The notes beneath the pieces are model-generated. The model searched no databases. It was not told the origin of the DNA and saw nothing but the letters and a program-made list of their open reading frames with translations. A DNA stretch of 64,000 nucleotides from Paraburkholderia largidicola (GTDB lineage: Bacteria > Pseudomonadota > Gammaproteobacteria > Burkholderiales > Burkholderiaceae): NCBI RefSeq assembly GCF_013426895.1, contig NZ_AP023174.1, positions 1,674,001 to 1,738,000 of the forward strand. The letters run 5' to 3'. How positions within the stretch are numbered: position 1 is the stretch's first letter; each line of letters begins with the position of its first letter. Below, piece by piece: positions 3 to 12,305 of the stretch. The position numbers and the translations under genes are program-made.

Positions 3-62
3 TCACCTGTGATGAACGCGCCGGCGCCGTTGCGTGCCGGCCACGAACGGAGGCTGTCGTGA
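3..62 (+). CDS. possible 3' end of an upstream gene (partial)
   Basis: A reading frame is open from the left edge and ends in TGA at 60-62, overlapping the ATG at 62 of the next gene (TGATG). That is the usual junction of coupled operon genes. Only about 19 residues (ending HERRLS) are visible, so no family can be named. A second possible stop in another frame lies at 10-12. If real, this is the gene before the HDO operon, and could be the missing precursor or partner gene. Confidence 0.3.
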   Translation, partial: SPVMNAPAPLRAGHERRLS

Positions 63-1048
63 TGGACGACATTTTTGAACCACAGGCGTTTGTGCTGGCG
101 GGGAAGTGTCTCAGCACGTCGCCTTCGCTCGTCATCGAAGACGACGAGAACCAATATGAATTTCCGGCGTCCGTCGACGGTGAAGACGCGGCGTCCCTGA
201 TCAGCGCGCTGCGCTCCGGCGTCAAGGCGGAGGAGGTGATCTCCCGCTATTCGCCGTACGAACAGAAAGTGTTCGACCGTCTGAAGGAACTGCAACTGGT
301 GCGCGCGGTGAAGCCCGCGCTGGCCCGCAGCGGCCTCGACGTGCTGCTCGAACTCGAAGATCTCGCCAACGATCTGCTGTATCGCACGCTCTATACGAAC
401 GTGTTCTGGGAGAAGTGCTCGTCCGCGAGTTCGGGCGACGACATTCCCCTCAACGTGATCCACGGGATGATCGTGGAGAACTACCATTTCCTGTTCCGCG
501 AAAGCTATTTCGACGCGCCCGTTCTTTCATACGTCGCGAACACGGGCGTGCGGCTCTCGATGAACGAGTTCTACGCGGAAGAGTACGGCCACGACGAACT
601 GTTGCTCAAGGCGCTGAACACGCTCGGCGTCACGCGCGAGGATCTCGCGCGCACCGTGCCGTTGCCGCAAACCATGGCGCTGTGTAACGCGCTTGCTTTC
701 TGGGCGCATAGCGACCCGCTGTTTTTCTTTTCGACCCTCGGCATTCTCGAAGGCAAGGACATCAAGCAGGATTCCTTCCTCGACGCGGCGTATCGGATCG
801 GTGTCGATCCTGCTTTGCTGAAGCCCGTGAAAGCGCATTCCGACATCAACCTGAACGGCGGTCACGGCAGCCTGACGCGCAAGATCTTTTCGCGCATTCC
901 CGCCATTGCGGATGCCGACGTGCGGCGCATGCGCGCGCACACGCATCTGTTCATCGAACTGTACGACCAGTTCTATACGGGCATCTGGGAACACTATTCG
1001 ACGTCTCCGACGCTGCTGCGCACACTCGACGTCAACGGGGAGGCATGA
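62..1048 (+). CDS. haem-oxygenase-like diiron oxidase (HDO) family protein, paralogue 1
   Basis: Predicted cytosolic iron-containing redox enzyme of the TenA/PqqC-like haem-oxygenase fold, the family that includes UndA, BesC and SznF-type oxidases. Residues about 30-82 form a small alpha/beta winged-helix-like domain ending in 'FDRLKELQL', resembling RiPP recognition elements. The helical HDO domain follows. Candidate metal ligands are E139 and H142 (ENYH), E174 and H177 (EEYGH), E230 (GILEG), H259 and H268. The acidic residue four positions before the last His in paralogues 2 and 3 is Leu here, so metal binding may be altered. A shared 'VPLPxT' motif links all three paralogues. Start: ATG at 62 sits 8 nt after CGGAGG; a GTG at 59 is also possible. 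Substrate unknown. Confidence 0.75.
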   Translation: MDDIFEPQAFVLAGKCLSTSPSLVIEDDENQYEFPASVDGEDAASLISALRSGVKAEEVISRYSPYEQKVFDRLKELQLVRAVKPALARSGLDVLLELEDLANDLLYRTLYTNVFWEKCSSASSGDDIPLNVIHGMIVENYHFLFRESYFDAPVLSYVANTGVRLSMNEFYAEEYGHDELLLKALNTLGVTREDLARTVPLPQTMALCNALAFWAHSDPLFFFSTLGILEGKDIKQDSFLDAAYRIGVDPALLKPVKAHSDINLNGGHGSLTRKIFSRIPAIADADVRRMRAHTHLFIELYDQFYTGIWEHYSTSPTLLRTLDVNGEA

Positions 1049-2043
1049 TGCAGGCCACGACCGCAGCAGATCTTTTCGCCGCGCCGCGCTTTCGTCCCGG
1101 CGTGCAACTGATCGAAGAGCACAACGGCCTGACGCTCGACTATCGCGAGCAATCGTGTTCCGTCGTTGCCGACAGTCAGGGCGCGCTCAAGGCGTTCGTC
1201 GATTCGCTCCGACGCGGCGACACGTCGACGGCCGAACTGAAGCGCCGTCATCCGGAGCTTGCGTCGGAAATCGACGGGCTGCTGGAGGAGTTCGACCGGC
1301 TCGGCCTGCTGACCGAGAGCGCGTTTCCCACGCCTCAGGGTTGTCTGTCAGGCGAGGAGTTCTATCACCGGCTCAGAAAGTTCGCCGCTGAAACCATCGA
1401 GGCGAATTCGAAATCGCGTCTCTATCTGGGGCTGTGCGACCGCACCTTGCCGAAGAGCGCGCTGATCGGCTACGCGCTCGAATACTTCTATATCGTGCGC
1501 GAGGCGCCGGGTCTGATCGCGCCGTCGCTCGCGCATGCCGAACCCGTCAAGGTGCAGAAGCTGCTGCAAGGCTTTCTCGCCTCGGAACTGAATCACGACG
1601 ACATGCTGCGGGAGTCGCTGCATGCCGTTTCCATCCGCACCGACAATCTCGACTATCTGGTGCCGCTGCCCGCCACGTTCGCGCTGTGCGCGTCGCTCGG
1701 CGTGTATGCGCGCCAGCATCCGTTGAGCTTCAAGTCGCTGCTGTTCCTGTTCGAGCAGCCGAGCGTGAGCTTTCATATCGAACTGGCGAACTATTGCCGC
1801 GAGACGGGCATCCCGGAAGGCTTCTGGCGTCCGATCGCCCGTCACTCGACGATCAACGACGAGTTCGATCACGAAGACATTTCGCTCAGCCTGCTTGCTG
1901 AAATCGAGGCCATCTCGCCTGAAGAGCAGATGACGGTCAAGAAGCACGTGATGCTCGCCATCGAAACCATGGTGCTGCAGGAGAACCAGATTCTCGATTT
2001 TTACGGCCGTCAGTCCGTCGTCAAACCGCGCATCTTTGCCTGA
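1045..2043 (+). CDS. haem-oxygenase-like diiron oxidase (HDO) family protein, paralogue 2
   Basis: Second of three tandem HDO-fold proteins (332 aa), overlapping the previous stop codon; a second ATG at 1048 is an equally good start behind GGGGAGG at 1037-1043. Residues about 20-92 form the same N-terminal winged-helix-like domain (ending 'EEFDRLGLL'), followed by the helical HDO domain. Visible ligand positions: E146, E181 and H184 (ELNH), E237, H267, D272 and H276 (HSTINDEFDH). The first-helix His of the other paralogues is Tyr149 here (EYFY), so the site may bind metal differently or have lost activity. The tight overlap indicates cotranslation and a possible complex. Function is inferred only from fold and context. 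Confidence 0.75.
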   Translation: MMQATTAADLFAAPRFRPGVQLIEEHNGLTLDYREQSCSVVADSQGALKAFVDSLRRGDTSTAELKRRHPELASEIDGLLEEFDRLGLLTESAFPTPQGCLSGEEFYHRLRKFAAETIEANSKSRLYLGLCDRTLPKSALIGYALEYFYIVREAPGLIAPSLAHAEPVKVQKLLQGFLASELNHDDMLRESLHAVSIRTDNLDYLVPLPATFALCASLGVYARQHPLSFKSLLFLFEQPSVSFHIELANYCRETGIPEGFWRPIARHSTINDEFDHEDISLSLLAEIEAISPEEQMTVKKHVMLAIETMVLQENQILDFYGRQSVVKPRIFA

Positions 2044-2051
2044 GAGCTGCC

Positions 2052-3554
2052 ATGGAACGCTGGGATATCGATCGATACAGACGGCCGGCGTTGGTGCCGT
2101 GCGAAGTGTCGGCGGGCATCGAGGGATTGACGATCGGCGTGGGCGACGATGCCATCGACCTGTCGTTCGAAGGCGTCGCGCGCGACGAGGTGGCCGAGGT
2201 CGTCACGCAGTTGATGCGGCCTGCGTCTGATATCTGGGTGCGCCTGGGCGAAGGCGCGTGCCCCGCGTGGATTCGTACGCTCACGGTGCAACTGGATGCG
2301 CTGTCGCTGATCGAGGAGACGGATAGCGGAATCGACAGCATCACGTCCGATGCCCAGCGCGCGATGGCGTTGTGCGATGAAGTTGGGCAACGGCTGGCCG
2401 TTGTCGTCGGACGTCGGCTTGCGATGTATCAGGATGTGCTGAGCGTCGTTCATCAGATGCTCACGGCAGACACGCACGATCGCGACGCGATGCCCAGTGC
2501 GTTTCCATTTTCTGATGAAGGCAGCGGCAAGTTCGCCGGCAACTTCGCGCTTCAGTCGCTCCATTTCCAGTTGGCGTATGCGCGCCATAACGCCCCGGAA
2601 ATCGTGTTCGCGTGGCAGCGCGTGCTCGCCGACGTGTTCCAACACGTGGGCTGGCATCCGGCGACGGCCGTGTCGGACGATGCTCCTCTGGAGCGCTTCC
2701 GCAGCGTCGCCTCGCTCGATCCCGTCGATCTGGAAATGTATCTGCTGTCGTTCGCGCATTTCGTCGAGATCGCGCCGCTGCGTGTCGGCAGGCGCATGAC
2801 GTCGGCGGATACGGAACGCTTCACCGAACCCTGCAGCGGTCTCGCGCTCGCCGCGCGCGCCGAGCGCCTGCTACTCAACGCGCTCGAACAACTGGGCAGT
2901 AACGCGTATGCAGCGGCGGCGCTCGAGAGCCATGACATCACGCCGCTCGTGAAGGGCCTGTACATCGAGCAGTATCACGTCACCGACCGGTTCGTCGAGA
3001 TACTCGGGCCGTTGCTGTCGCGCCGCCTCAAACGCAATCTGCGCGCGCGGCTGTTCCAGTACTTCCAGGAAGAATACGGTCACGAAGCATTCGAACTGGC
3101 CACGTGTGTCGCGCTCGGCATGAACGAAGCCGAGGTGCGCGCATCGGTGCCGCTGCCGCTTACGGCGCTGTATATCGACGCGTACACGGTGCTGGCGCAT
3201 CGCCTGCCCACAGCATTCTTTACGTCGATCATGGTCACGGAAGGCCTGCGCGACCAGCACAGTCCCGTACACGAGCACATCGCCGCGCTGGTCGAAAGCG
3301 CGTTGCACGCGGGCGATATCGTCGCAAAGCATGGCGAGACCAACGACGAACTGAATCATCCGAGCCTGTCGCGCCTGTTCCTCGCCGACGTCCCACACGT
3401 GAGCGCGGCGGAGCAGCGGTACAGCCTCGAATCGGCGCTCTTCATGCTCGAAGTGAACATGCGGCAGCTGGAGTCGGTCGCGTTCTTTTATGGTGAACAG
3501 ACACGTCTCCAGTTTCATGGGCTTCGTGAAGGCAGGAGGCCGCTTGAAATCTGA
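2052..3554 (+). CDS. haem-oxygenase-like diiron oxidase (HDO) family protein, long paralogue 3
   Basis: Third tandem HDO-fold protein, 500 aa, starting 8 nt after the previous stop. Residues about 10-95 are the winged-helix-like N-terminal domain; about 96-280 are an additional mostly helical region absent from the shorter paralogues; the HDO domain fills the rest. It is the only one of the three with the complete ligand set by eye: E306/H309 (EQYH), E341/H344 (EEYGH), E397 (VTEG), H427, D432 and H436 (HGETNDELNH). It is therefore the best candidate for the active oxygenase, with the others as partners or diverged enzymes. The family activates O2 at a diiron centre to desaturate, cleave or hydroxylate amino-acid-like or fatty substrates; which applies here is unknown. 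Confidence 0.75.
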   Translation: MERWDIDRYRRPALVPCEVSAGIEGLTIGVGDDAIDLSFEGVARDEVAEVVTQLMRPASDIWVRLGEGACPAWIRTLTVQLDALSLIEETDSGIDSITSDAQRAMALCDEVGQRLAVVVGRRLAMYQDVLSVVHQMLTADTHDRDAMPSAFPFSDEGSGKFAGNFALQSLHFQLAYARHNAPEIVFAWQRVLADVFQHVGWHPATAVSDDAPLERFRSVASLDPVDLEMYLLSFAHFVEIAPLRVGRRMTSADTERFTEPCSGLALAARAERLLLNALEQLGSNAYAAAALESHDITPLVKGLYIEQYHVTDRFVEILGPLLSRRLKRNLRARLFQYFQEEYGHEAFELATCVALGMNEAEVRASVPLPLTALYIDAYTVLAHRLPTAFFTSIMVTEGLRDQHSPVHEHIAALVESALHAGDIVAKHGETNDELNHPSLSRLFLADVPHVSAAEQRYSLESALFMLEVNMRQLESVAFFYGEQTRLQFHGLREGRRPLEI

Positions 3555-4827
3555 CGACGGCGCCGACGAAGGAGGCGAGCGCGGAATTGAACGCGCTCAG
3601 CGCTTCGATCCCGTCAATCCCTATTGGGAACAATTCCTCGACGAAGCGGGCCTCGACATGACGGGCGCGCGCGGCGACGGCTGCTATATCGAAACAGCCG
3701 ATGGCCGCGCGTTGCTCGATTGCCTCGCCGGTTTTGGCACGGCGAACCTGGGGCACGCGCATGAGTCGCTGCTCGCGCGTTTTGCCGATGCACTGCAGCG
3801 CACGTCGGTGAATGTGTTTCCGTTCGAATGCGCCGAGTCCCAACTCGCGCTCGCTGAAAAGTTGCTCGCGCTCAGCGGCCGGCGCTTCCAGAAAGTGTTC
3901 TTCGCGACCACGGGCGCGGAGGCCGTCGAAAGCGCTGTGAAGTTCGCGATGACGAGCACAGGGCGTACCGATGTCGTCACCTTCCGCGACGCCTTCCACG
4001 GCCTGTCGATGTTTTCGTCGTTCATGACGGGCAATCCGTTCTGGACGGAAGCGCTGCGCTGGAAGCCGGGCAACGTCCATCACGTCGATGCGCAGAATTT
4101 CGCCGCGCTCGAAGACAGTCTCGCGAGCCGCAAGATCGCTGCCGTTGTGTTCGAGCCCGTGGCGGGATCGTCGGCGGCGCAGCACTGGACGGCCGACACC
4201 GCGTCGCGTCTCGCGGCGCTGTGTCGTTCGACGGGAACGAAGCTGATCGCCGACGAGGTGTATTGCGGCCTCGGCCGCACGGGGACATGGTTCGGCATCG
4301 ACGCGATCGGCATGGACGCCAAGGGACCCGCGGCAACCGCGGCGCCCGACATGATCGTCGTATCGAAAGGACTGACGGGCGGGCTGGTGCCGCTGTCGGC
4401 CGTGCTGATGAACGACGGCGATTTCGATGCCGTGTTCGGTGCGCCCGGCAAGGCGAAAGTGCAGGGCTCGACCTTTGGCGGCAACCGGCTCGCCATGCAG
4501 TGCGGGCTGATCGTGCTCGACCTCGTCGAACGCGGACGGCTGGTCGAGAACGCGGCCGCGATGGGCGCACTGATCGGCGAGCGCATCGCAGCGCGTTTCG
4601 ATTCGCGCGTGAGCGTGCACGGCAAGGGCCTCGCGCTCAGCCTCAAGCTCGACCCGCGTCTGGACAGGAACATGACCGACGTGTGGGTGGATCTGATCGA
4701 CGGCGGCGTGCTGGCGATGCCGAATTCCGCTGCGCCGGATTCGCTGCGCCTGTCGCCGCCGCTGATTTTCGGCGTGGATGAAGTGGAAGTTCTGATCGAC
4801 CGACTCGACGAGGCGCTACAGCCATGA
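3544..4827 (+). CDS. class III PLP-dependent aminotransferase
   Basis: Fold-type I aminotransferase of the ornithine/diaminobutyrate/acetylornithine class. 'TTGAEAVESAVKFA' (phosphate region), 'IADEVYCGLGRTG' (the Asp that contacts the PLP ring nitrogen) and 'VVSKGLTGGLVPLS' (Schiff-base Lys) are all present, followed by 'STFGGN'. I chose the TTG at 3544 because a perfect AGGAGG lies at 3534-3539; this gives 427 aa and an 11-bp overlap with the preceding gene. An in-frame ATG at 3490 adds 18 residues but has only a distant GGAG. It could install an amine on the product of the HDO enzymes or generate their substrate. The acceptor is unknown. It overlaps the next gene by ATGA. Confidence 0.88.
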   Translation: MKSDDGADEGGERGIERAQRFDPVNPYWEQFLDEAGLDMTGARGDGCYIETADGRALLDCLAGFGTANLGHAHESLLARFADALQRTSVNVFPFECAESQLALAEKLLALSGRRFQKVFFATTGAEAVESAVKFAMTSTGRTDVVTFRDAFHGLSMFSSFMTGNPFWTEALRWKPGNVHHVDAQNFAALEDSLASRKIAAVVFEPVAGSSAAQHWTADTASRLAALCRSTGTKLIADEVYCGLGRTGTWFGIDAIGMDAKGPAATAAPDMIVVSKGLTGGLVPLSAVLMNDGDFDAVFGAPGKAKVQGSTFGGNRLAMQCGLIVLDLVERGRLVENAAAMGALIGERIAARFDSRVSVHGKGLALSLKLDPRLDRNMTDVWVDLIDGGVLAMPNSAAPDSLRLSPPLIFGVDEVEVLIDRLDEALQP

Positions 4828-5906
4828 ATGCGAACAATCAGAAGCAGAAGGAGGGCGCCGGCTACGCTGCGCTGCTCGTGGCGCTGTGCTGGTGGGGCCT
4901 GATGCCGCTGTATTACTGGCATCTGAAGGAAGTGAGCGCGCCGGAGATGCTCGCGCATCGCGTGTTCTGGTCGTTCGTGGTGCTGTCGGCCGTGATTGCT
5001 CTCAAGCCCGCGTTGCGGCAACACATGGGTGACTGGCGCTCGTTCCTGCTCGCACTGTTGCCGGCGATTTTGCTGTCCGCGAACTGGGTTGTGTATATCC
5101 TGGCGTCGGTGACGGGGAACGCGTTACAGGCGAGTCTAGGCTATTTCCTGAATCCGCTGCTGTCGGCTGCGCTTGGCATCGTTTTTCTGAACGAGCGTCT
5201 GAACGGTCTGAAAGCGGCAGCGCTGGCGCTCGGACTGGCCGGCACCTTCGTCCAGTGTTACGCGCATGGCGGCGTGCCCGTGTTCGCCGTGATGCTGACG
5301 GTGACGTTCTCGCTGCTCGGCCTTACGCGCAAAGTGTGGCCGACGCGAAACGCGATCGTCAGCACGTGGCGCGAAACCGTCGTGATGATGCCGTTCGCGC
5401 TCGGCTATTTCGGCTATCTGACGTCGCATCATGCACTTGCGTTTACGTCGTTCGGCGTCGACGCGTCCGTGCTGATGATGCTGGCGGGGCCGCTGACCGT
5501 CGTGCCCCTCGCGCTCTACGCGTACGCAATGCCGCTCGTGTCGATGACGGAATCGGCCGTGATGCAATACGTGACGCCGACCGTGACGTTCATTCTCGCG
5601 CTCACGGTCTTCCACGAACGGTTAACGACCGTCGATCTGACAGGTTACGGGCTGATCTGGTGCGGCCTCGCGCTCGCGACCTATGCGTCGATCCGGCGTC
5701 GTCCGCTTGCGCTCGCCGTCGCGGCGCCAGGAACGGCGCAGGGAACGCAAAGTGTGCAGGGCGTGCAAGGTGCGAGCGTGGCAGGACAGAACGTGTCCTT
5801 TCTTTCGTCGCACAAAAAGACGCCAGCTTCCGCTGGCGTGAATAGGTTCTGGCATTCCGAGGGCCGTCCAGAACCTGAGAGACGGTGCGAAAAGTCTGAC
5901 GCATAA
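4824..5906 (+). CDS. rarD: RarD-type EamA/DMT family permease
   Basis: Inner-membrane drug/metabolite transporter of the RarD family ('chloramphenicol-sensitive protein RarD'). It has many hydrophobic segments and the typical opening 'GLMPLYYWHLKEVSAPEMLAHRVFWS'. The core ends near residue 300, the usual family length. The last roughly 60 residues are low-complexity (Gln/Gly/Val/Ala) and read through an inverted repeat at 5820-5839, so they may not be conserved. The start overlaps the aminotransferase stop (ATGA), placing it in the same operon, where it could export the pathway product. Transport substrate is not known for this subgroup; a housekeeping RarD that happens to be cotranscribed is the alternative. 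Confidence 0.85.
   Translation: MNANNQKQKEGAGYAALLVALCWWGLMPLYYWHLKEVSAPEMLAHRVFWSFVVLSAVIALKPALRQHMGDWRSFLLALLPAILLSANWVVYILASVTGNALQASLGYFLNPLLSAALGIVFLNERLNGLKAAALALGLAGTFVQCYAHGGVPVFAVMLTVTFSLLGLTRKVWPTRNAIVSTWRETVVMMPFALGYFGYLTSHHALAFTSFGVDASVLMMLAGPLTVVPLALYAYAMPLVSMTESAVMQYVTPTVTFILALTVFHERLTTVDLTGYGLIWCGLALATYASIRRRPLALAVAAPGTAQGTQSVQGVQGASVAGQNVSFLSSHKKTPASAGVNRFWHSEGRPEPERRCEKSDA
5812..5839 (-). terminator. intrinsic terminator read on the minus strand
   Basis: Perfect 8-bp stem (ACGCCAGC at 5820-5827 pairing with GCTGGCGT at 5832-5839) with a TTCC loop. A run of A on the plus strand at 5814-5818 becomes a U-tract in a minus-strand transcript. It lies inside the rarD reading frame, so it points to a minus-strand transcript rather than ending the operon. 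Confidence 0.6.
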
Positions 5907-6503: not shown

Positions 6504-8798
6504 ATGACAAGTTCTCCCGGCTCATATGACGACGAGCCGTTGGTATCGATAAACATGGCGGGCTCAGCCGCCGACGCTTACCGCATCAGCCACGCGTCCG
6601 GCGGCGCGCGTCCGGCTGCGCGCGCGTCCGCGCGCTTTGTCGCGCCTGGCGAAAGCATCGATATCCACGGCCTGACGGTCTCGGGAGGCTTCTTCTACAC
6701 GGGCGACGCGCAGCGCCTGCACGCCGATTCGATCGAAGCATGTGTGATCGACGCGCGCCAGGACGTCGCCCGCGACGGCGCGGACCCGGCAGCGGGACTG
6801 GGCAGCGTCGCGCTCAGCTATGGCGGGCTCACGCCGGAGCAACGCCGCACGTATCTCGAATGGCTCGCCTCCGATCGCAAGAAATCGGACATCAACACCG
6901 GCTATCTGTTTTTCTACCTGTACGGGCTGGAGCGGCGCGTGCTCGTCGACGGCGCGGCGGGCAAAGTCAGCGCCGACGAATTCAACGCCATCGCGCGGGA
7001 ACTGCGGCGCCTGCTCAATCTCGACGCGAACTACGGCTGGCAAAAGCACGTGCGCGCGCTCATCGACGCGCTGTCGCTGGTGGCGTCGCGCGGTACGCGA
7101 ATGTATCTGCAACCCGCGCCCGACGGGCTCGCGACGGGTTATCAGGTGCCGCTGAACGTACGCGTCGCGTTCGGCCAGGCGGCGCTCGACCAGCATCCGT
7201 TACCGGCCGACTGGGCGCTCGCGTGGGTCAAGCTCGATCCGATGATGGTGCGGCGCACGGCCGTCGCGCGCTGTCCCGAGGAATTCGACCGCGTGTTCAT
7301 GCGGCAGTATCGCGACCGCTTCGGCGCCGGCATGCTGCTGCCAGCGAACCGCACGAAGCTCGACGCGTCGCCGCAGCCGTCGTTTCGCGCGCTGAAGAGC
7401 GTGCCCGTGCCGGGCTTTCTGGTCGGTCTGCCCGACATCGCGGCCGTCAATGGCACGCGCAACAAGCTGCAACTGCTGATGCACGAGAGCGCCGCCGCGC
7501 TCGACGCGTACAGCCGCTATCTCGGCCGCTATCCGGAGGCGCAGGGCACGCTGGAAGCAACGCTGACGCTGCCGCCCGCCCTGTGGCCGCAGGCGACGCA
7601 CGACGCGATCGACGCGCTCGCCGCCGAAGTCGCGCGCGAGACGGCGGTCAGCACGTTCGGCGCGGTGCTGGCGCGCTTCAAGTCGGGCGGCAAGATGACG
7701 CGCGACAAGGCTGTTGTCTTTACGACGGCGCTCGCGGAAGCGGGCATCGCCGTCGAGCCGGACGTCCGTCTGGGCGCGCGCACGCCGAAGCCGACGGACG
7801 CCGTCGCGCTGTTCGCGGTCGCGCCCAGTGCGACCCCGCTGGCCATCGACGACGCGTACGAGATTGCGACGATCATCGTCGATCTCGCTGCGACGGTTGC
7901 CCGCGCGGATGGCGACGCGACGCAGCGCGAGACGGCCGTGATCGAATGGCAGATCGATCAGTGGCCGCACTTGTCCGATGCGCAGCGCGCGCGGCTGAAA
8001 GCGCGCAATCTCGCGCAACTCGCGCAGCCGACGGCGAGCGCCGGGCTGAAGAAAAAGCTGGAACCGCTCGCGCAGGACGTGAAGGCGACGATCGCGTCGT
8101 TTCTCGTGCACACGGCGAATGCCGACGGCGTCGTGTCGCGTGAAGAAGTGCGCTTGCTGGAGAAGGTGTACCGGATGCTCGGCATCGATCCGCAGCGCCT
8201 GTACACCGACCTGCATCAACATGCGAGCGGCGCGGCCATCACGCCAGCGGGCGTGAAGCCGGCAAAGAAACATGCTCACTCACCGAAGCCTGCCGTGGTG
8301 AAGCACGAGTTCGTGCTCGACGCGACGCGTATTGCCGCGTTGAAGGAAGAGACGGCGCGCGTCTCTTCGATGCTGGCCGATGTGTTCGTCGACGAAGCGC
8401 ATGGGTCCGTTACCGCCGTGCACCTCCCCGAAACGGCGCAACCGGCCGCCGTCGAGGAACAGGACATGCTTGCGCCACAGGCAACGGCCGCCGTGCATGA
8501 CGTCGAGCCGACGCCTTCGCCCGAACCGCAGGCGGGACCGACGCCGCAAACGTCTGACGCTACCGGGCCGCTGCTCGGCCTCGACGATGCGCATTCGTCC
8601 TTTCTGCGCCTGCTCGTGACGCGCGAGTCGTGGACGCGCGCCGAGCTCGCCGATGCCGCATTGCATCTCGAACTGATGCTGGACGGCGCGATCGAACAGG
8701 TGAACGAGGCGTCGCTCGACCGTTGGGACGAGCCGCTCACGGACGGAGAGGATCCCGTCGAAATCAATCAGGAAGTCGCACAAAGGTTGGCTGCATGA
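6504..8798 (+). CDS. TerB N-terminal / TerB C-terminal domain protein
   Basis: Large (764 aa) soluble protein with the architecture of tellurite-resistance-associated TerB proteins. It has a TerB_N-like region beginning near 'IHGLTVSGGFFYTG' and continuing through 'GYLFFYLYGLERR', a long middle region, and a TerB-like helical domain with two acidic metal-site-like stretches ('ARADGDATQRE' and 'ANADGVVSREEVRLLEKVYRMLG'). An acidic Pro/Ala linker then leads to a TerB_C-like end ('FLRLLVTRESWTRAELADAALHLELMLDGAIEQVNE'). ATG 6504 was preferred over an in-frame ATG at 6348 because the added residues look non-conserved. It overlaps the next gene by ATGA. The family is linked by context to phage and DNA-stress response systems; the biochemical role is unproven. 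Confidence 0.8.
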   Translation: MTSSPGSYDDEPLVSINMAGSAADAYRISHASGGARPAARASARFVAPGESIDIHGLTVSGGFFYTGDAQRLHADSIEACVIDARQDVARDGADPAAGLGSVALSYGGLTPEQRRTYLEWLASDRKKSDINTGYLFFYLYGLERRVLVDGAAGKVSADEFNAIARELRRLLNLDANYGWQKHVRALIDALSLVASRGTRMYLQPAPDGLATGYQVPLNVRVAFGQAALDQHPLPADWALAWVKLDPMMVRRTAVARCPEEFDRVFMRQYRDRFGAGMLLPANRTKLDASPQPSFRALKSVPVPGFLVGLPDIAAVNGTRNKLQLLMHESAAALDAYSRYLGRYPEAQGTLEATLTLPPALWPQATHDAIDALAAEVARETAVSTFGAVLARFKSGGKMTRDKAVVFTTALAEAGIAVEPDVRLGARTPKPTDAVALFAVAPSATPLAIDDAYEIATIIVDLAATVARADGDATQRETAVIEWQIDQWPHLSDAQRARLKARNLAQLAQPTASAGLKKKLEPLAQDVKATIASFLVHTANADGVVSREEVRLLEKVYRMLGIDPQRLYTDLHQHASGAAITPAGVKPAKKHAHSPKPAVVKHEFVLDATRIAALKEETARVSSMLADVFVDEAHGSVTAVHLPETAQPAAVEEQDMLAPQATAAVHDVEPTPSPEPQAGPTPQTSDATGPLLGLDDAHSSFLRLLVTRESWTRAELADAALHLELMLDGAIEQVNEASLDRWDEPLTDGEDPVEINQEVAQRLAA

Positions 8799-10105
8799 CA
8801 ACGATCCGCCCAAGGGACCGCGACGCGGTCCTGCAATCCCTGCGCGCCGGCGTGGTGCCGCGCATCGGGCAACATCTGATTCAGGTCGGCCGCGCGCACG
8901 AACTCGAAGCGTTGCTGAAAGACATCGAACGCGTCGCGGACGGCGGCTCGGCGTTTCGCATCGTCGTCGGCGAGTATGGCGCGGGCAAGACGTTCTTCCT
9001 GAACCTCGTGCGCGCCATCGCGCTCGAGAAAAAGCTCGTCACCGTGCACGCGGACCTGAATCCGGACCGGCGCCTGCATGCGTCGGGCGGCCAGGCGCGC
9101 TCGCTGTACGCGGAACTCGTGAAGAACATGGCGACGCGCACCAAGCCCGAAGGCGGCGCGCTGGCCGGTGTGGTCGAGAAGTTCATCGGCCAGGCGAAGA
9201 CGGAAGCGAAGGCGACGGGCCGCACGAGCGACGAAGTGATCCGCGCGCAGCTGTCGCAACTGACGGAGATGGTCAACGGCTACGATTTCGCCGATGTGAT
9301 CGCCGCCTACTTCCGCGGCTTTGAAGAGGGCAACGAGAAGTTGAAGAGCGATGCCGTGCGCTGGCTGCGCGGCGAGTTCACGACGCGCACCGACGCGCGC
9401 CAGGCGCTCGGCGTGCGCACCATCGTCGACGACGCGAGCATGTACGACCAGTTGAAGCTGCTCGGCCGTTTCGTGCGGCTCGCGGGCTACAGCGGGCTGA
9501 TGGTATGTCTCGACGAAATGGTGAACCTGTACAAGCTCGCGAACGTGCAGGCGCGCAACGCGAACTACGAACAGATCCTTCGCATCCTGAACGATTCGCT
9601 GCAAGGCACGGCGGAAGGGCTTGGCTTCGTGCTGGGCGGCACGCCCGAGTTTCTGCTCGATACGCGCCGCGGCCTCTATAGCTATGCCGCACTGCAATCG
9701 CGCCTGGCGGAAAACGCCTTCGCGACCAATGGACTCGTCGACTACAGCGGCCCTGTGATCCGCCTCGCTGCGCTCACGCCGGAAGATTTCTACGTGTTGC
9801 TCGACAAGCTGCGCCTGCTGTACGCGTTCGGCGACGCGAGCAAGGCGCTCGTACCTGAGGAAGCGATTCCCGCGTTCATGGCGCACTGCGCGACGCGCCT
9901 GGGCGAAGCCTATTTCCGCACGCCGCGCACCACGATCACCGCGTTCATCAATTTCCTCGCGGTGCTGGAGCAAAACCCGTCGGCCGACTGGCGCGAACTG
10001 ATCGGCAGTATGGACATCGAGCGCGACACGGGCGGCGCGGCCGACATCGTCAACGACGCCGCGCCCGATAGCGACGATGAACTTGCCAGCTTCCGGCTCA
10101 ACTGA
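8795..10105 (+). CDS. BrxD-like P-loop ATPase (DUF2791)
   Basis: AAA/STAND-like ATPase of 436 aa. The Walker A motif GEYGAGKT is at about residues 59-66, and a Walker B-like 'GLMVCLDEMVNLY' is in the second half. The sequence after Walker A ('TVHADLNPDRRLHASGGQARSLY') and the later 'GFVLGGTPEFLLDTRRGLYSY' are typical of DUF2791 ATP-binding proteins, which include BrxD of some BREX types. The start is fixed by an ATGA overlap with the TerB gene; the frame continues upstream only as a shadow. It overlaps the helicase gene by 29 bp, so the three are almost certainly cotranslated. Likely a DNA- or partner-dependent ATPase of the same complex. Confidence 0.82.
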   Translation: MTTIRPRDRDAVLQSLRAGVVPRIGQHLIQVGRAHELEALLKDIERVADGGSAFRIVVGEYGAGKTFFLNLVRAIALEKKLVTVHADLNPDRRLHASGGQARSLYAELVKNMATRTKPEGGALAGVVEKFIGQAKTEAKATGRTSDEVIRAQLSQLTEMVNGYDFADVIAAYFRGFEEGNEKLKSDAVRWLRGEFTTRTDARQALGVRTIVDDASMYDQLKLLGRFVRLAGYSGLMVCLDEMVNLYKLANVQARNANYEQILRILNDSLQGTAEGLGFVLGGTPEFLLDTRRGLYSYAALQSRLAENAFATNGLVDYSGPVIRLAALTPEDFYVLLDKLRLLYAFGDASKALVPEEAIPAFMAHCATRLGEAYFRTPRTTITAFINFLAVLEQNPSADWRELIGSMDIERDTGGAADIVNDAAPDSDDELASFRLN

Positions 10106-12305
10106 TTCGCGCAGCTTCGATCTGCTCGACGAGCGGATCCGCCGCTGGATCTGGCGCGAAGGCTGGACCGAACTGCGCGATGCGCAGGAGCGCGCGGTGC
10201 CCGCGCTGATCGATGCCGACCGCGATGTGATCATCGCGGCCGCGACGGCGGCAGGCAAAACGGAAGCGGCCTTTCTCCCCATCCTGTCGAACCTGCTGCG
10301 TGACGATCCGTGCAGCGGCTCCGTGCTGTACATCAGTCCGCTGAAGGCGCTGATCAACGATCAGTGGGCGCGCCTCGACGACCTGTGCGACGCGCTGGAG
10401 ATTCCCGTCACCGGCTGGCATGGCGATGTGTCGTCGGGACGCAAGCAACGCTTCGTGAAAAAGCCGACGGGCGTGCTGTTGATCACGCCTGAATCGCTGG
10501 AAGCGATGTTCGTCACGCGCGGCGCGTCGCTCGAAGCGACGTTTGGCGCGTTGCGTTACGTCGTCGTCGACGAGTTGCACGCGTTCATCGGCTCCGAGCG
10601 CGGCATGCAGTTGCAGTCGCTGATGCGGCGCGTCGATCGCGCATGCGGGCGCAATGTGCCGCGCGTCGGCCTGTCGGCGACGCTCGGCGACATGCGCCTC
10701 GCAGCCGAATTTCTGCGCCCACGCGCCGCGCAGGACGTGCAGATCATCGAGTCCGGCAACACGGGCCAGGAACTGAAGATTCTGATCAAAGGCTATGTCG
10801 AGAAGCCGCCGCGCATCCAGTTCGAGCCGGGCATCGAAAATCCCGGCCTCGAAGACGTCGTGCCCGCCAGCACCGTCGAGGTCGCGAATCACATGTACAA
10901 GGTGCTGCGCGGCTCGAACAATCTGATCTTTCCGAACAGCCGTCGCCAGGTCGAGCTCTACGCCGACCTGCTGCGCCGCGCCTGCGAGCGTGACGGCTAT
11001 CCGAACGAGTTCTGGCCGCATCACGGCAGCCTGTCGAAGGAATTGCGCGAGCAGACCGAGCAGGCGCTCAAGGCGGGAGACCGGCCCGCCAGCGCCGTCT
11101 GCACGACGACGCTCGAACTCGGTATCGACATTGGCGCAGTGAAGAGCGTGGTGCAGGTGGGCGCGCCGCCGTCGGTAGCGAGCTTGCGGCAGCGGCTCGG
11201 ACGCTCGGGGCGGCGCAAGGGCGAAGCGGCGATTCTGCGCTGCTATGGCGTCGAAGCGGAACTGCACAGCGGCTCCGATCTGTCGGACCGGCTGCGCGAA
11301 AGTCTCGTGCAATCGGTGGCGATGGTGAACCTGCTGCTGCGCGGCTGGTTCGAGCCGCCGCGTGCGCGCGGCATGCATCCGTCGACGCTCGTGCAGCAGA
11401 TCCTGTCGATCATCGCCGAACGCGGCGGCGCGAGCGCGGGCGAACTGTGGGACACGCTGGTCGCGACCGGCCCGTTCGGCACGATCGACAAGCCGACCTT
11501 CGCCGCGATCCTGCGCAGCCTCGGCGCGAAAGATCTCCTCGTGCAGGAAGCGGGCGGCCTGCTGCTGCATGGCGTGGCGGGCGAGCGGCTCGTCAATCAC
11601 TACGAGTTCTACGCATCGTTTTCGACCGACGACGAATTCCGCATTGTCGCGGGCGCGAAGGTGCTCGGATCGGTGCCTGTATCGCGTCCGCTGGCGCCCG
11701 GGCAAGGCCTCGTGTTCGGCGGCCAGCGCTGGCGCGTGCAGGATGTCGATGCGGGAAAAAAGACCGTGTACGTGACGCCCGATCAGGGCGGCGTGCCGCC
11801 TGTGTTCGACGGCGGCGGCTCGCTCGTGCACGACGAAGTGCGGCGCGAGATGTTCAATGTGCTGAAGGATGGCGCGCCCATCGTGTTTCTCGATACCACG
11901 GGCCGCGAACTGCTCGAAGAGGCACGGCGTTATTTCGCGTCGAACGAACTGGCCACGCGCTCCGTTTTCACGCATGGCGGCAGCACGGTGCTCGCGACAT
12001 GGGCCGGCGACTGGATCAACGATGCGCTCGTCGTACTGCTGCGCGCCGAAGGGTTGGACGCGTGGAATCAGGGCCCGACGATCAGCGTGCGCGTAGCAGG
12101 TTCGGTAAGGGACACACTGCAACGCATCGCTGCGCTGACGCCCGCGCAGACCACGGACGCATTACGCGCGATCGGCAACATCGACAATGAAAAGTGGGAC
12201 TGGACCCTGCCCGACGACGTGAAGCGCAGCGCGTATGCGTCGCTGCGGCTCGACATGCCGGGCGCGCAGGCGCTGGCACGGCGGCTCGCGACGGCGTGCG
12301 ACTGA
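10077..12305 (+). CDS. Lhr/BrxHI-like DEAD/DEAH-box helicase
   Basis: Superfamily 2 helicase of 742 aa. Motif I variant AATAAGKTEAA (about 55-65), DELH motif II (165-168), SAT motif III (200-202) and motif VI 'QRLGRSGRRKG' are in order. The C-terminal half resembles Lhr-type extensions ('VNHYEFYASFSTDDEFRIVAGAKVLGSVP'). It translocates on or unwinds nucleic acid using ATP. In BREX-type loci an equivalent protein is called BrxHI; here no PglX, PglZ or BrxC is present, so the locus is not a BREX system. The start lies 29 bp inside the ATPase gene. Confidence 0.85.
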   Translation: MNLPASGSTDSRSFDLLDERIRRWIWREGWTELRDAQERAVPALIDADRDVIIAAATAAGKTEAAFLPILSNLLRDDPCSGSVLYISPLKALINDQWARLDDLCDALEIPVTGWHGDVSSGRKQRFVKKPTGVLLITPESLEAMFVTRGASLEATFGALRYVVVDELHAFIGSERGMQLQSLMRRVDRACGRNVPRVGLSATLGDMRLAAEFLRPRAAQDVQIIESGNTGQELKILIKGYVEKPPRIQFEPGIENPGLEDVVPASTVEVANHMYKVLRGSNNLIFPNSRRQVELYADLLRRACERDGYPNEFWPHHGSLSKELREQTEQALKAGDRPASAVCTTTLELGIDIGAVKSVVQVGAPPSVASLRQRLGRSGRRKGEAAILRCYGVEAELHSGSDLSDRLRESLVQSVAMVNLLLRGWFEPPRARGMHPSTLVQQILSIIAERGGASAGELWDTLVATGPFGTIDKPTFAAILRSLGAKDLLVQEAGGLLLHGVAGERLVNHYEFYASFSTDDEFRIVAGAKVLGSVPVSRPLAPGQGLVFGGQRWRVQDVDAGKKTVYVTPDQGGVPPVFDGGGSLVHDEVRREMFNVLKDGAPIVFLDTTGRELLEEARRYFASNELATRSVFTHGGSTVLATWAGDWINDALVVLLRAEGLDAWNQGPTISVRVAGSVRDTLQRIAALTPAQTTDALRAIGNIDNEKWDWTLPDDVKRSAYASLRLDMPGAQALARRLATACD

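Follow-up and report, generated by a model that had tools for sequence, protein, structure and literature searches.

A candidate ribosomal-peptide tailoring pathway around three HDO paralogues in Paraburkholderia largidicola

Introduction

What does an operon act upon that encodes three haem-oxygenase-like diiron oxidase (HDO) paralogues in a row, followed by an aminotransferase and a permease? The operon lies at the left edge of the window, meaning the whole 64,000-nucleotide stretch analysed (G000:C1:1674001-1738000, from the 9.47-Mb genome of Paraburkholderia largidicola); Paraburkholderia is also the source of the nearest named relatives of H1, the first paralogue. An earlier note, made from the letters alone, proposed an undescribed small-molecule pathway. 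The likely substrate was invisible to that reader because the window's left edge cuts the gene of a short peptide, and the operon is more interesting than first reported because its probable substrate is ribosomal.

Results

Five co-directional genes downstream of a peptide gene cut by the window's edge

Analysis of the window's reading frames revealed five open, co-directional genes at 62-5906 that overlap or nearly touch, preceded by the end of a sixth, much shorter one (positions are those of the window):

1 to 12, + strand: 3' end of the gene of the 48-aa candidate precursor peptide, with last codons Val-His-Leu and the stop; the remainder occupies window −134 to 0 (L003:9866-10000)
20 to 41, + strand: 8-bp hairpin between the peptide stop and the H1 start, with no T run (z −1.40, not significant)
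62 to 1048, + strand: H1, 328 aa; an RRE-like N-terminal domain, likely on sequence grounds (aa 1 to about 90), and an HDO domain
1045 to 2043, + strand: H2, 332 aa; architecture as H1
2052 to 3554, + strand: H3, 500 aa; N-terminal domain, an extra middle region of about 190 aa, and an HDO domain
3490 to 4827, + strand: class III PLP aminotransferase, 445 aa; the start codon is uncertain and the true start may be later
4824 to 5906, + strand: RarD-type EamA permease, 360 aa; a probable exporter

The three tandem HDO-fold paralogues that the earlier note had recognised all exceeded the Pfam cut-off of 28.9 bits for PF14518 (Haem_oxygenas_2), with scores of 35.6 (H1), 33.5 (H2) and 31.0 (H3), so that the HMM test it had proposed did not place them outside the fold. 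Its assignment of a class III aminotransferase and a RarD permease to the same operon also held, through matches to PF00202 and TIGR00688 (147.3 bits, cut-off 130.15) and the near-touching arrangement of the genes, whereas the supposed gene ending at 62 does not exist: the reading frame that is open from position 2 belongs to H1 itself. None of the 25 NCBI models listed for the aminotransferase, of 70 matched, reached its cut-off (best, acetylornithine transaminase, 226.6 vs 457 bits). Seven aminotransferases from clusters of this kind, the window's among them, formed one clade (support 100/100) against an outgroup of 13 other class III enzymes, all from the window's own genome. RiPP clusters commonly include a protease or an ABC exporter; neither is among the operon's five genes, nor is a hydrolase, ligase, YcaO protein or carbamoyltransferase.

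A conserved peptide ending in His-Leu

The neighbour suspected to the left of position 1 does exist, although it ends at 12 and not at 62: a gene for a 48-aa peptide (L003:9866-10012, window −134 to 12) lies upstream of H1, and beyond it, about 1 kb from H1, a MocR-type regulator with GntR and aminotransferase I/II domains is encoded divergently on the other strand. A peptide ending His-Leu-stop was found upstream of the HDO genes in all 25 loci with an H1, which span Burkholderiaceae to Rhodococcus, giving each the RiPP trait of a short precursor gene beside modifying enzymes. The His-Leu ending was the search criterion upstream of these loci; the first sightings were independent of it, coming from lists of all plus-strand ORFs of at least 25 aa in eight upstream regions. 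Within the 1.1 kb of upstream sequence examined, the peptide ended about 49-85 nt before the estimated start of H1 in 24 of the 25. The Tistrella peptide, found by reading all short ORFs, lies further upstream and precedes the gene of a ThDP enzyme. Elsewhere, ORFs of at least 15 aa ending in His-Leu numbered 12 in 807 strand-kb (24 of the loci), and one locus without H1 (L047), which keeps H2 and part of H3, is also without the peptide.

A longer C-terminal signature, [PT]-[VIT]-[LV]-[IMA]-[PAV]-x-H-L-stop, was present in 24 of the 25 loci; the Rhodococcus peptide, ending TIVAVAVHL, falls outside it, has the His-Leu end alone in common, and was added to the pattern by hand as an alternative. 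Lengths ranged from 17 aa (Rhodococcus) to 59 aa (type C, below). Among ten representative peptides an ATG start could be placed in all, the C-terminal residue was Leu in all, and a Shine-Dalgarno-like stretch preceded the ATG in eight, being weak in both type C members. At a threshold of E 0.1 the window's peptide had no match in its own genome other than itself. The Robbsia and Rhodococcus peptides have no entry in the gene tables of their plasmid records, tables which are known to be incomplete.

Across all 13 loci of the window's own type (type A), pN/pS for the peptide was 0.13, and codons 31-48 (TVVVKPRKARPVLIPVHL) showed synonymous changes only, 15 of them varying and 3 not. The peptide is under purifying selection. 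These counts come from loci that are not independent: besides the 13 close relatives of type A, the 25 include 3 of type B, 5 of type C and a single locus for each of four further types.

A fixed gene order with variable last genes

A gene-order search, which the earlier note had suggested, found H1-H2-H3 in 24 of 26 loci, beyond what chance would give, the exceptions being Rhodococcus (L054; H1-H2 only) and L047. The genes inside the fetched stretches define seven cluster types:

Type A (window type, 13 loci): MocR divergent; peptide-H1-H2-H3-aminotransferase-RarD
Type B (G083, G084 and Robbsia plasmid p4): peptide-H1-H2-H3-aminotransferase-EamA-GNAT; MocR adjacent in 2 of 3
Type C (four genomes of genus g277, and G010): peptide-H1-H2-H3-GMC oxidoreductase, with a fourth HDO nearby, split into two pieces in G010
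Type D (a Legionellales MAG): peptide-H1-H2-H3-aminotransferase-GNAT-MFS
Type E (P. fluorescens P5A): peptide-H1-H2-H3-aminotransferase-ATP-grasp-MFS-GNAT
Type F (Rhodococcus gordoniae plasmid): peptide-H1-H2-MFS-GNAT
Type G (Tistrella pTM3): peptide-ThDP enzyme-H1 fused to H2-H3

The stretches of Rhodococcus, Tistrella and all five type C loci yielded no aminotransferase, which is therefore not part of the core.

Within the genus, 19 of 144 genomes had a relative of H3, one of them partial. Matches occurred in 9 of 398 genomes of the family, own genome included (G969 has a weak lone match); at E 1e-30, the own genome alone matched among 369 of the class, 398 of the phylum and 300 of the order. 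These four counts are lower bounds because few candidates were scored per genome. H1 and H2 also co-occur in the protein lists of relatives, for example as E6Q88_03690 and E6Q88_03685 of Lysobacteraceae. A phage or virus origin was considered and set aside, with no match to H1 among phages and no confirmed relative in viral_contigs.

Three old paralogues with probably RRE-like N-terminal domains

Pairwise identities among the paralogues were 24% for H1 and H2 (E 8e-20), 28% for H1 and H3 (E 1e-16) and 22% for H2 and H3 (E 2e-8). A tree of 33 rows, drawing on 10 of the 26 loci and built on the C-terminal 260 residues of the proteins (Rhodococcus without H3; two rows of the fourth HDO, HDO4, and two Enterobacter outgroup rows included), placed H1, H2 and H3 in one clade each, with support of 100/99, 98/98 and 100/100, respectively, and long branches flagged. 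The trio therefore does not reflect recent tandem duplication and is, as judged from these sequences, an old, fixed set. The fusion of H1 and H2 in Tistrella suggests physical contact between the two. A second HDO domain hidden in the middle region of H3 was looked for and not detected (0.1-5.6% probability).

The N-terminal 90 or so residues of the three proteins matched each other in hhalign comparisons (H1n/H2n 97.6%, H1n/H3n 94.4%, H2n/H3n 95.4%). A profile of this region, built from 20 hand-picked rows (19 of the 38 in the H1 alignment and one of HDO4), ranked PbtF (E 0.001) first and PaaA (E 0.0011) second in the PDB; we take both to be RRE-bearing RiPP proteins. Third came an ArsR regulator (E 0.0038). 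The H1 domain matched PqqD at 69.8% (12 of 14 PqqD loci passing the filter), as against 4.9% for a GntR control; the H2 and H3 domains, taken alone, matched PqqD at 4.2% and 2.4%. Pfam assigned generic winged helices to a few members, with PqqD not among the listed families, and no NCBIfam RRE model was significant, ApyI reaching E 0.093 in 1 of 38 rows. RRE domains are not universal in RiPPs. We conclude that the N-terminal domains of H1-H3 are likely RRE-like.

Precursors dock onto RREs as an extra beta strand, and pantocins are named among the classes with fused RREs (PMC7470986; this and the other cited papers are drawn on for their accessible portions). A Val/Ile-rich stretch precedes the end of the peptide here and would, by analogy, lend itself to such strand binding.

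A predicted metal site with Asn in place of Asp

The haem-oxygenase-like helical fold is indicated by sequence through the PF14518 matches of all three proteins and through the match of the H1 profile to MboA, its best sequence relative in the PDB (E 1.3e-5), which covers the HDO part of H1 only. The ligands of MboA are E86, H89, E143, H172, D176 and H181, with D90 additional in one chain (PMC13185094, accessible part). Transfer of this numbering by alignment and a renumbered chain, H2 and H3 being aligned through H1, gave the following positions:

H1: E174, H177, (D178), E230, H259, N263, H268
H2: E181, H184, (D185), E237, H267, N271, H276
H3: E341, H344, (E345), E397, H427, N431, H436

Three His and two Glu were kept in every row (H1 38/38, H2 38/38, H3 13/13), the position of Asp176 was Asn in nearly all (37/38, 38/38 and 13/13), and the switchable D90 position was Asp or Glu in all. 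The rows comprised, for H1, 37 of 120 listed relatives (290 found) and the window's own; for H2, 35 of 120 listed relatives (230 found), two loci and the window's own; and for H3, 7 of 31 relatives, five loci and the window's own. By eye, the fourth HDO of type C retains the Asp. With Asn at this site, diiron binding could be changed or lost, and the Asp or Glu at the Asp90 position might stand in for the sixth ligand. A review of HDOs describes 3H/3C and 3H/4C sites and a mononuclear variant without two alpha3 ligands, and no mention of an Asn variant was found in the part of it that was accessible (PMC13108848). The idea that H2 is degenerate, seemingly without an alpha1 His, was dropped because the MboA alignment shows the true ligands, which H2 keeps.

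Discussion

A proposed peptide-tailoring pathway

We propose, at a probability of about 0.7, that the operon encodes a RiPP-type pathway in which three HDOs with RRE-like domains act oxidatively on the C-terminal end of the peptide. The precursor would be the short peptide encoded upstream of H1, which is likely the HDO substrate; we lean slightly towards the C-terminus as the site of modification. In MboA, the target of oxidation is the residue at the C-terminus of a short peptide, and the peptide's carboxylate binds Fe1, according to the accessible text of PMC13185094. By analogy, the winged-helix RRE-like domains of H1-H3 would hold the Val/Ile-rich stretch while the C-terminal His-Leu, its free carboxylate coordinating iron, enters the HDO metal site. 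H1, H2 and H3 would then carry out successive O2-dependent oxidations of the Leu, perhaps also of the His, leaving an end that is desaturated or decarboxylated and carbonyl-bearing. They may act as one complex, for which we see even odds.

A carbonyl end would be the simplest reading because aminotransferases, GMC oxidoreductases and ThDP enzymes can all work on a carbonyl or alcohol, or on the position beside one. The aminotransferase would convert the carbonyl to an amine, a route that we put forward tentatively as the less probable part of the scheme, and the product would be exported by RarD, or by EamA or MFS proteins in relatives. In related clusters the final reaction would fall to a different enzyme (GMC oxidase, ThDP enzyme) or be followed by another (ATP-grasp ligase), and the GNAT that they often carry could mask the new amine or a free N-terminus.

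Alternative explanations

The alternative that survives best, though we consider it unlikely, is that the peptide is a carrier from which the modified Leu or His-Leu is cut off and exported as a small molecule that is toxic or binds metal. The last residues are all that the cluster types have in common, and the GNATs of four clusters belong to one family (29-46% identity) and occur in relatives with single-polypeptide exporters (EamA, MFS), as would suit N-acetylation of such a molecule for self-protection; that version overlaps with the oxidation of the C-terminus proposed above, the peptide still being the substrate. Against release of a fragment, a hydrolase or ligase is absent from the operon's five genes, although an ATP-grasp ligase is present in that of P5A; furthermore, no GNAT was found in the 13 type A stretches, and a search without a positive control found no relative of the Robbsia GNAT in the window's genome.

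The short ORF could instead be a regulatory leader, an attenuator or arrest peptide, with the HDOs acting on a free amino acid or another small molecule. Its position shortly before H1 would fit, as would its conservation up to the stop codon, which arrest peptides also show. Strong hairpins formed in four of the nine peptide-H1 spacers folded (z −7.1, −5.3, −3.1 and −2.7), including the homologous L034 spacer (z −2.68), and a terminator-like stem with T5 at 55-71 of the window overlaps the H1 start. However, the other five spacers folded no clearly better than their own shuffles (z −1.75 to 0.88), terminator-like sites were no commoner than in shuffles (10 vs 6.9, sd 2.8), and the Rhodococcus hairpin, on reading, like that of the window, is without a T run. 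The folds and the terminator-like stem are compatible alike with control of stoichiometry and with attenuation. The RRE-like domains on the HDOs, the placement of the Tistrella peptide before a ThDP gene and not before H1, and the recurrence of the His-Leu ending across the whole range of peptide lengths also speak against a leader, making it quite improbable.

Still less probable is an ordinary small-molecule pathway beside an incidental ORF, essentially the pathway that the earlier note had in mind. Characterised HDOs do act mostly on fatty or amino acids (PMC13108848, accessible part). Nevertheless, peptide and H1 occur together in 25 of 25 loci and are both missing from L047, and the peptide is under purifying selection, so that the evidence favours a ribosomal peptide substrate.

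Membership in the daptides, in which a C-terminal Thr is decarboxylated, transaminated and methylated, we regard as refuted: despite a class III aminotransferase, C-terminal conservation and an E value of 2.6e-52 against the daptide aminotransferase model, the enzyme scored 177.8 bits against a cut-off of 450, the C-terminus was Leu and not Thr in 10 of 10 representatives, and alcohol dehydrogenase, methyltransferase and intramembrane protease are absent from the five genes; the logic of the route, oxidative decarboxylation followed by transamination, may still be common to both. The FVG (gvg) cluster, with core genes gvgA, gvgB, gvgC and gvgF per the accessible part of PMC8064604, was rejected as its core differs and its carbamoyltransferase (gvgF) is absent from the five genes, and the fragin/valdiazen (ham) cluster was set aside as the 10 kb preceding the window showed no ORF large enough for an NRPS.

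A probable new class and its relation to known systems

The preferred reading, oxidation of a ribosomal peptide's C-terminus, would probably define a new RiPP class: a fixed trio of RRE-fused HDOs with a 3His/2Glu/Asn (plus switchable Asp/Glu) site, acting as one assembly on an invariant His-Leu, distributed over Actinomycetota and three classes of Pseudomonadota, and finishing with one of several exchangeable steps (transamination, GMC oxidation, ThDP chemistry). If true, diiron HDOs can form the core of a peptide class, beyond an accessory role in RiPP pathways, and three enzymes take turns on one peptide end, providing a system for asking how an Asn-for-Asp ligand set directs the reaction of O2 with a Leu or His that is not activated. 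A peptide of 17-59 aa ending in His-Leu near H1-H2 would, in addition, be a gene-based handle for products that annotation misses.

The operon is undescribed in the literature searched. As the earlier note had supposed, no cluster with this gene order was met there, the listings being partial, and no RiPP class with an HDO core was found, an absence that is not proven as most subscription papers lay outside the coverage. A term search of the main text of two RRE-guided surveys found nothing about HDOs (PMC7470986, PMC12710340), and HDO involvement is noted in Sinorhizobium RiPP clusters (PMC8120280, accessible part).

Comparison with individual systems, drawn from the accessible parts of the papers, revealed partial likenesses. 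DtpC of Acinetobacter resembles H1-H3, by description, in having an HDO-like domain outside the classical amino-acid pathways, but it is set apart, again by description, by co-transcription with a catalase and a tie to desiccation tolerance (PMC13232832). Daptides have a conserved C-terminus, RRE delivery, a PLP aminotransferase and a C-terminal carbonyl (presumed here) in common with the proposed pathway, whereas their Thr end, alcohol-dehydrogenase-type decarboxylase, methyltransferase and protease have no counterpart in this operon (PMC10036551). VarO, the thiovarsolin dehydrogenase, is likewise an HDO-type protein in a RiPP pathway, but it is a single enzyme beside YcaO/TfuA that acts on an Arg side chain, in contrast to three HDOs without YcaO here (PMC6511847). 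Finally, MboA, the mangotoxin acetylenase (PDB 9YPI, 9YPL and 9YPM), has the HDO fold of H1-H3. Its peptide is ligase-made and not ribosomal, and it works with the reductase MboB (PMC13185094); its E86, H89, E143, H172 and H181 positions are kept in all three paralogues, and its Asp176 is replaced by Asn.

Variation in cluster composition

The cluster version with the fewest parts was that on the Rhodococcus gordoniae plasmid pDND3A, in which H1 and H2, two of the three paralogous haem-oxygenase-like dimetal oxidase (HDO) proteins, are accompanied by a 17-aa peptide that is absent from the gene table shown for the plasmid record.

L054:11509-15362, R. gordoniae pDND3A cluster: 17-aa peptide, H1, H2, MFS, GNAT

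On plasmid pTM3 of Tistrella mobilis, H1 and H2 are joined in a single 691-aa open frame (L055:9950-12025); the pTM3 record is without annotation in the collection used. Genome G143 retained H2 and a partial H3, with neither H1 nor the peptide found at the locus (L047), which is apparently a decaying copy of the cluster.

All four type C loci compared (L066-L069), which carry a fourth HDO nearby, contain a small conserved ORF between this divergent HDO and the precursor candidate ending in His-Leu (L066:6603-6905 and the corresponding position in L067-L069), and this ORF might be a second candidate precursor.

Neighbouring genes and other HDO clusters

In genome G084, the stretch beside the type B cluster (L045:10903-12566) contains, by our reading of the sequence, a transporter resembling LysE together with an oxygenase-like ORF. 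An Enterobacter chuandaensis plasmid carries a different HDO cluster, with two HDO-type proteins.

L056:148-9560, E. chuandaensis partners: M14 peptidase, class I/II aminotransferase, nucleotidyltransferase, MFS

Immediately 3' of the HDO operon in the window, PADLOC assigned an anti-phage pair, followed by a further ORF.

window 6504-10102: SngA (TerB domains, E 4.6e-94) and SngB (BrxC/D ATPase, E 2.5e-183)
window 10077-12305: ORF after the pair

We take the SngA and SngB pair to be a Shango system.
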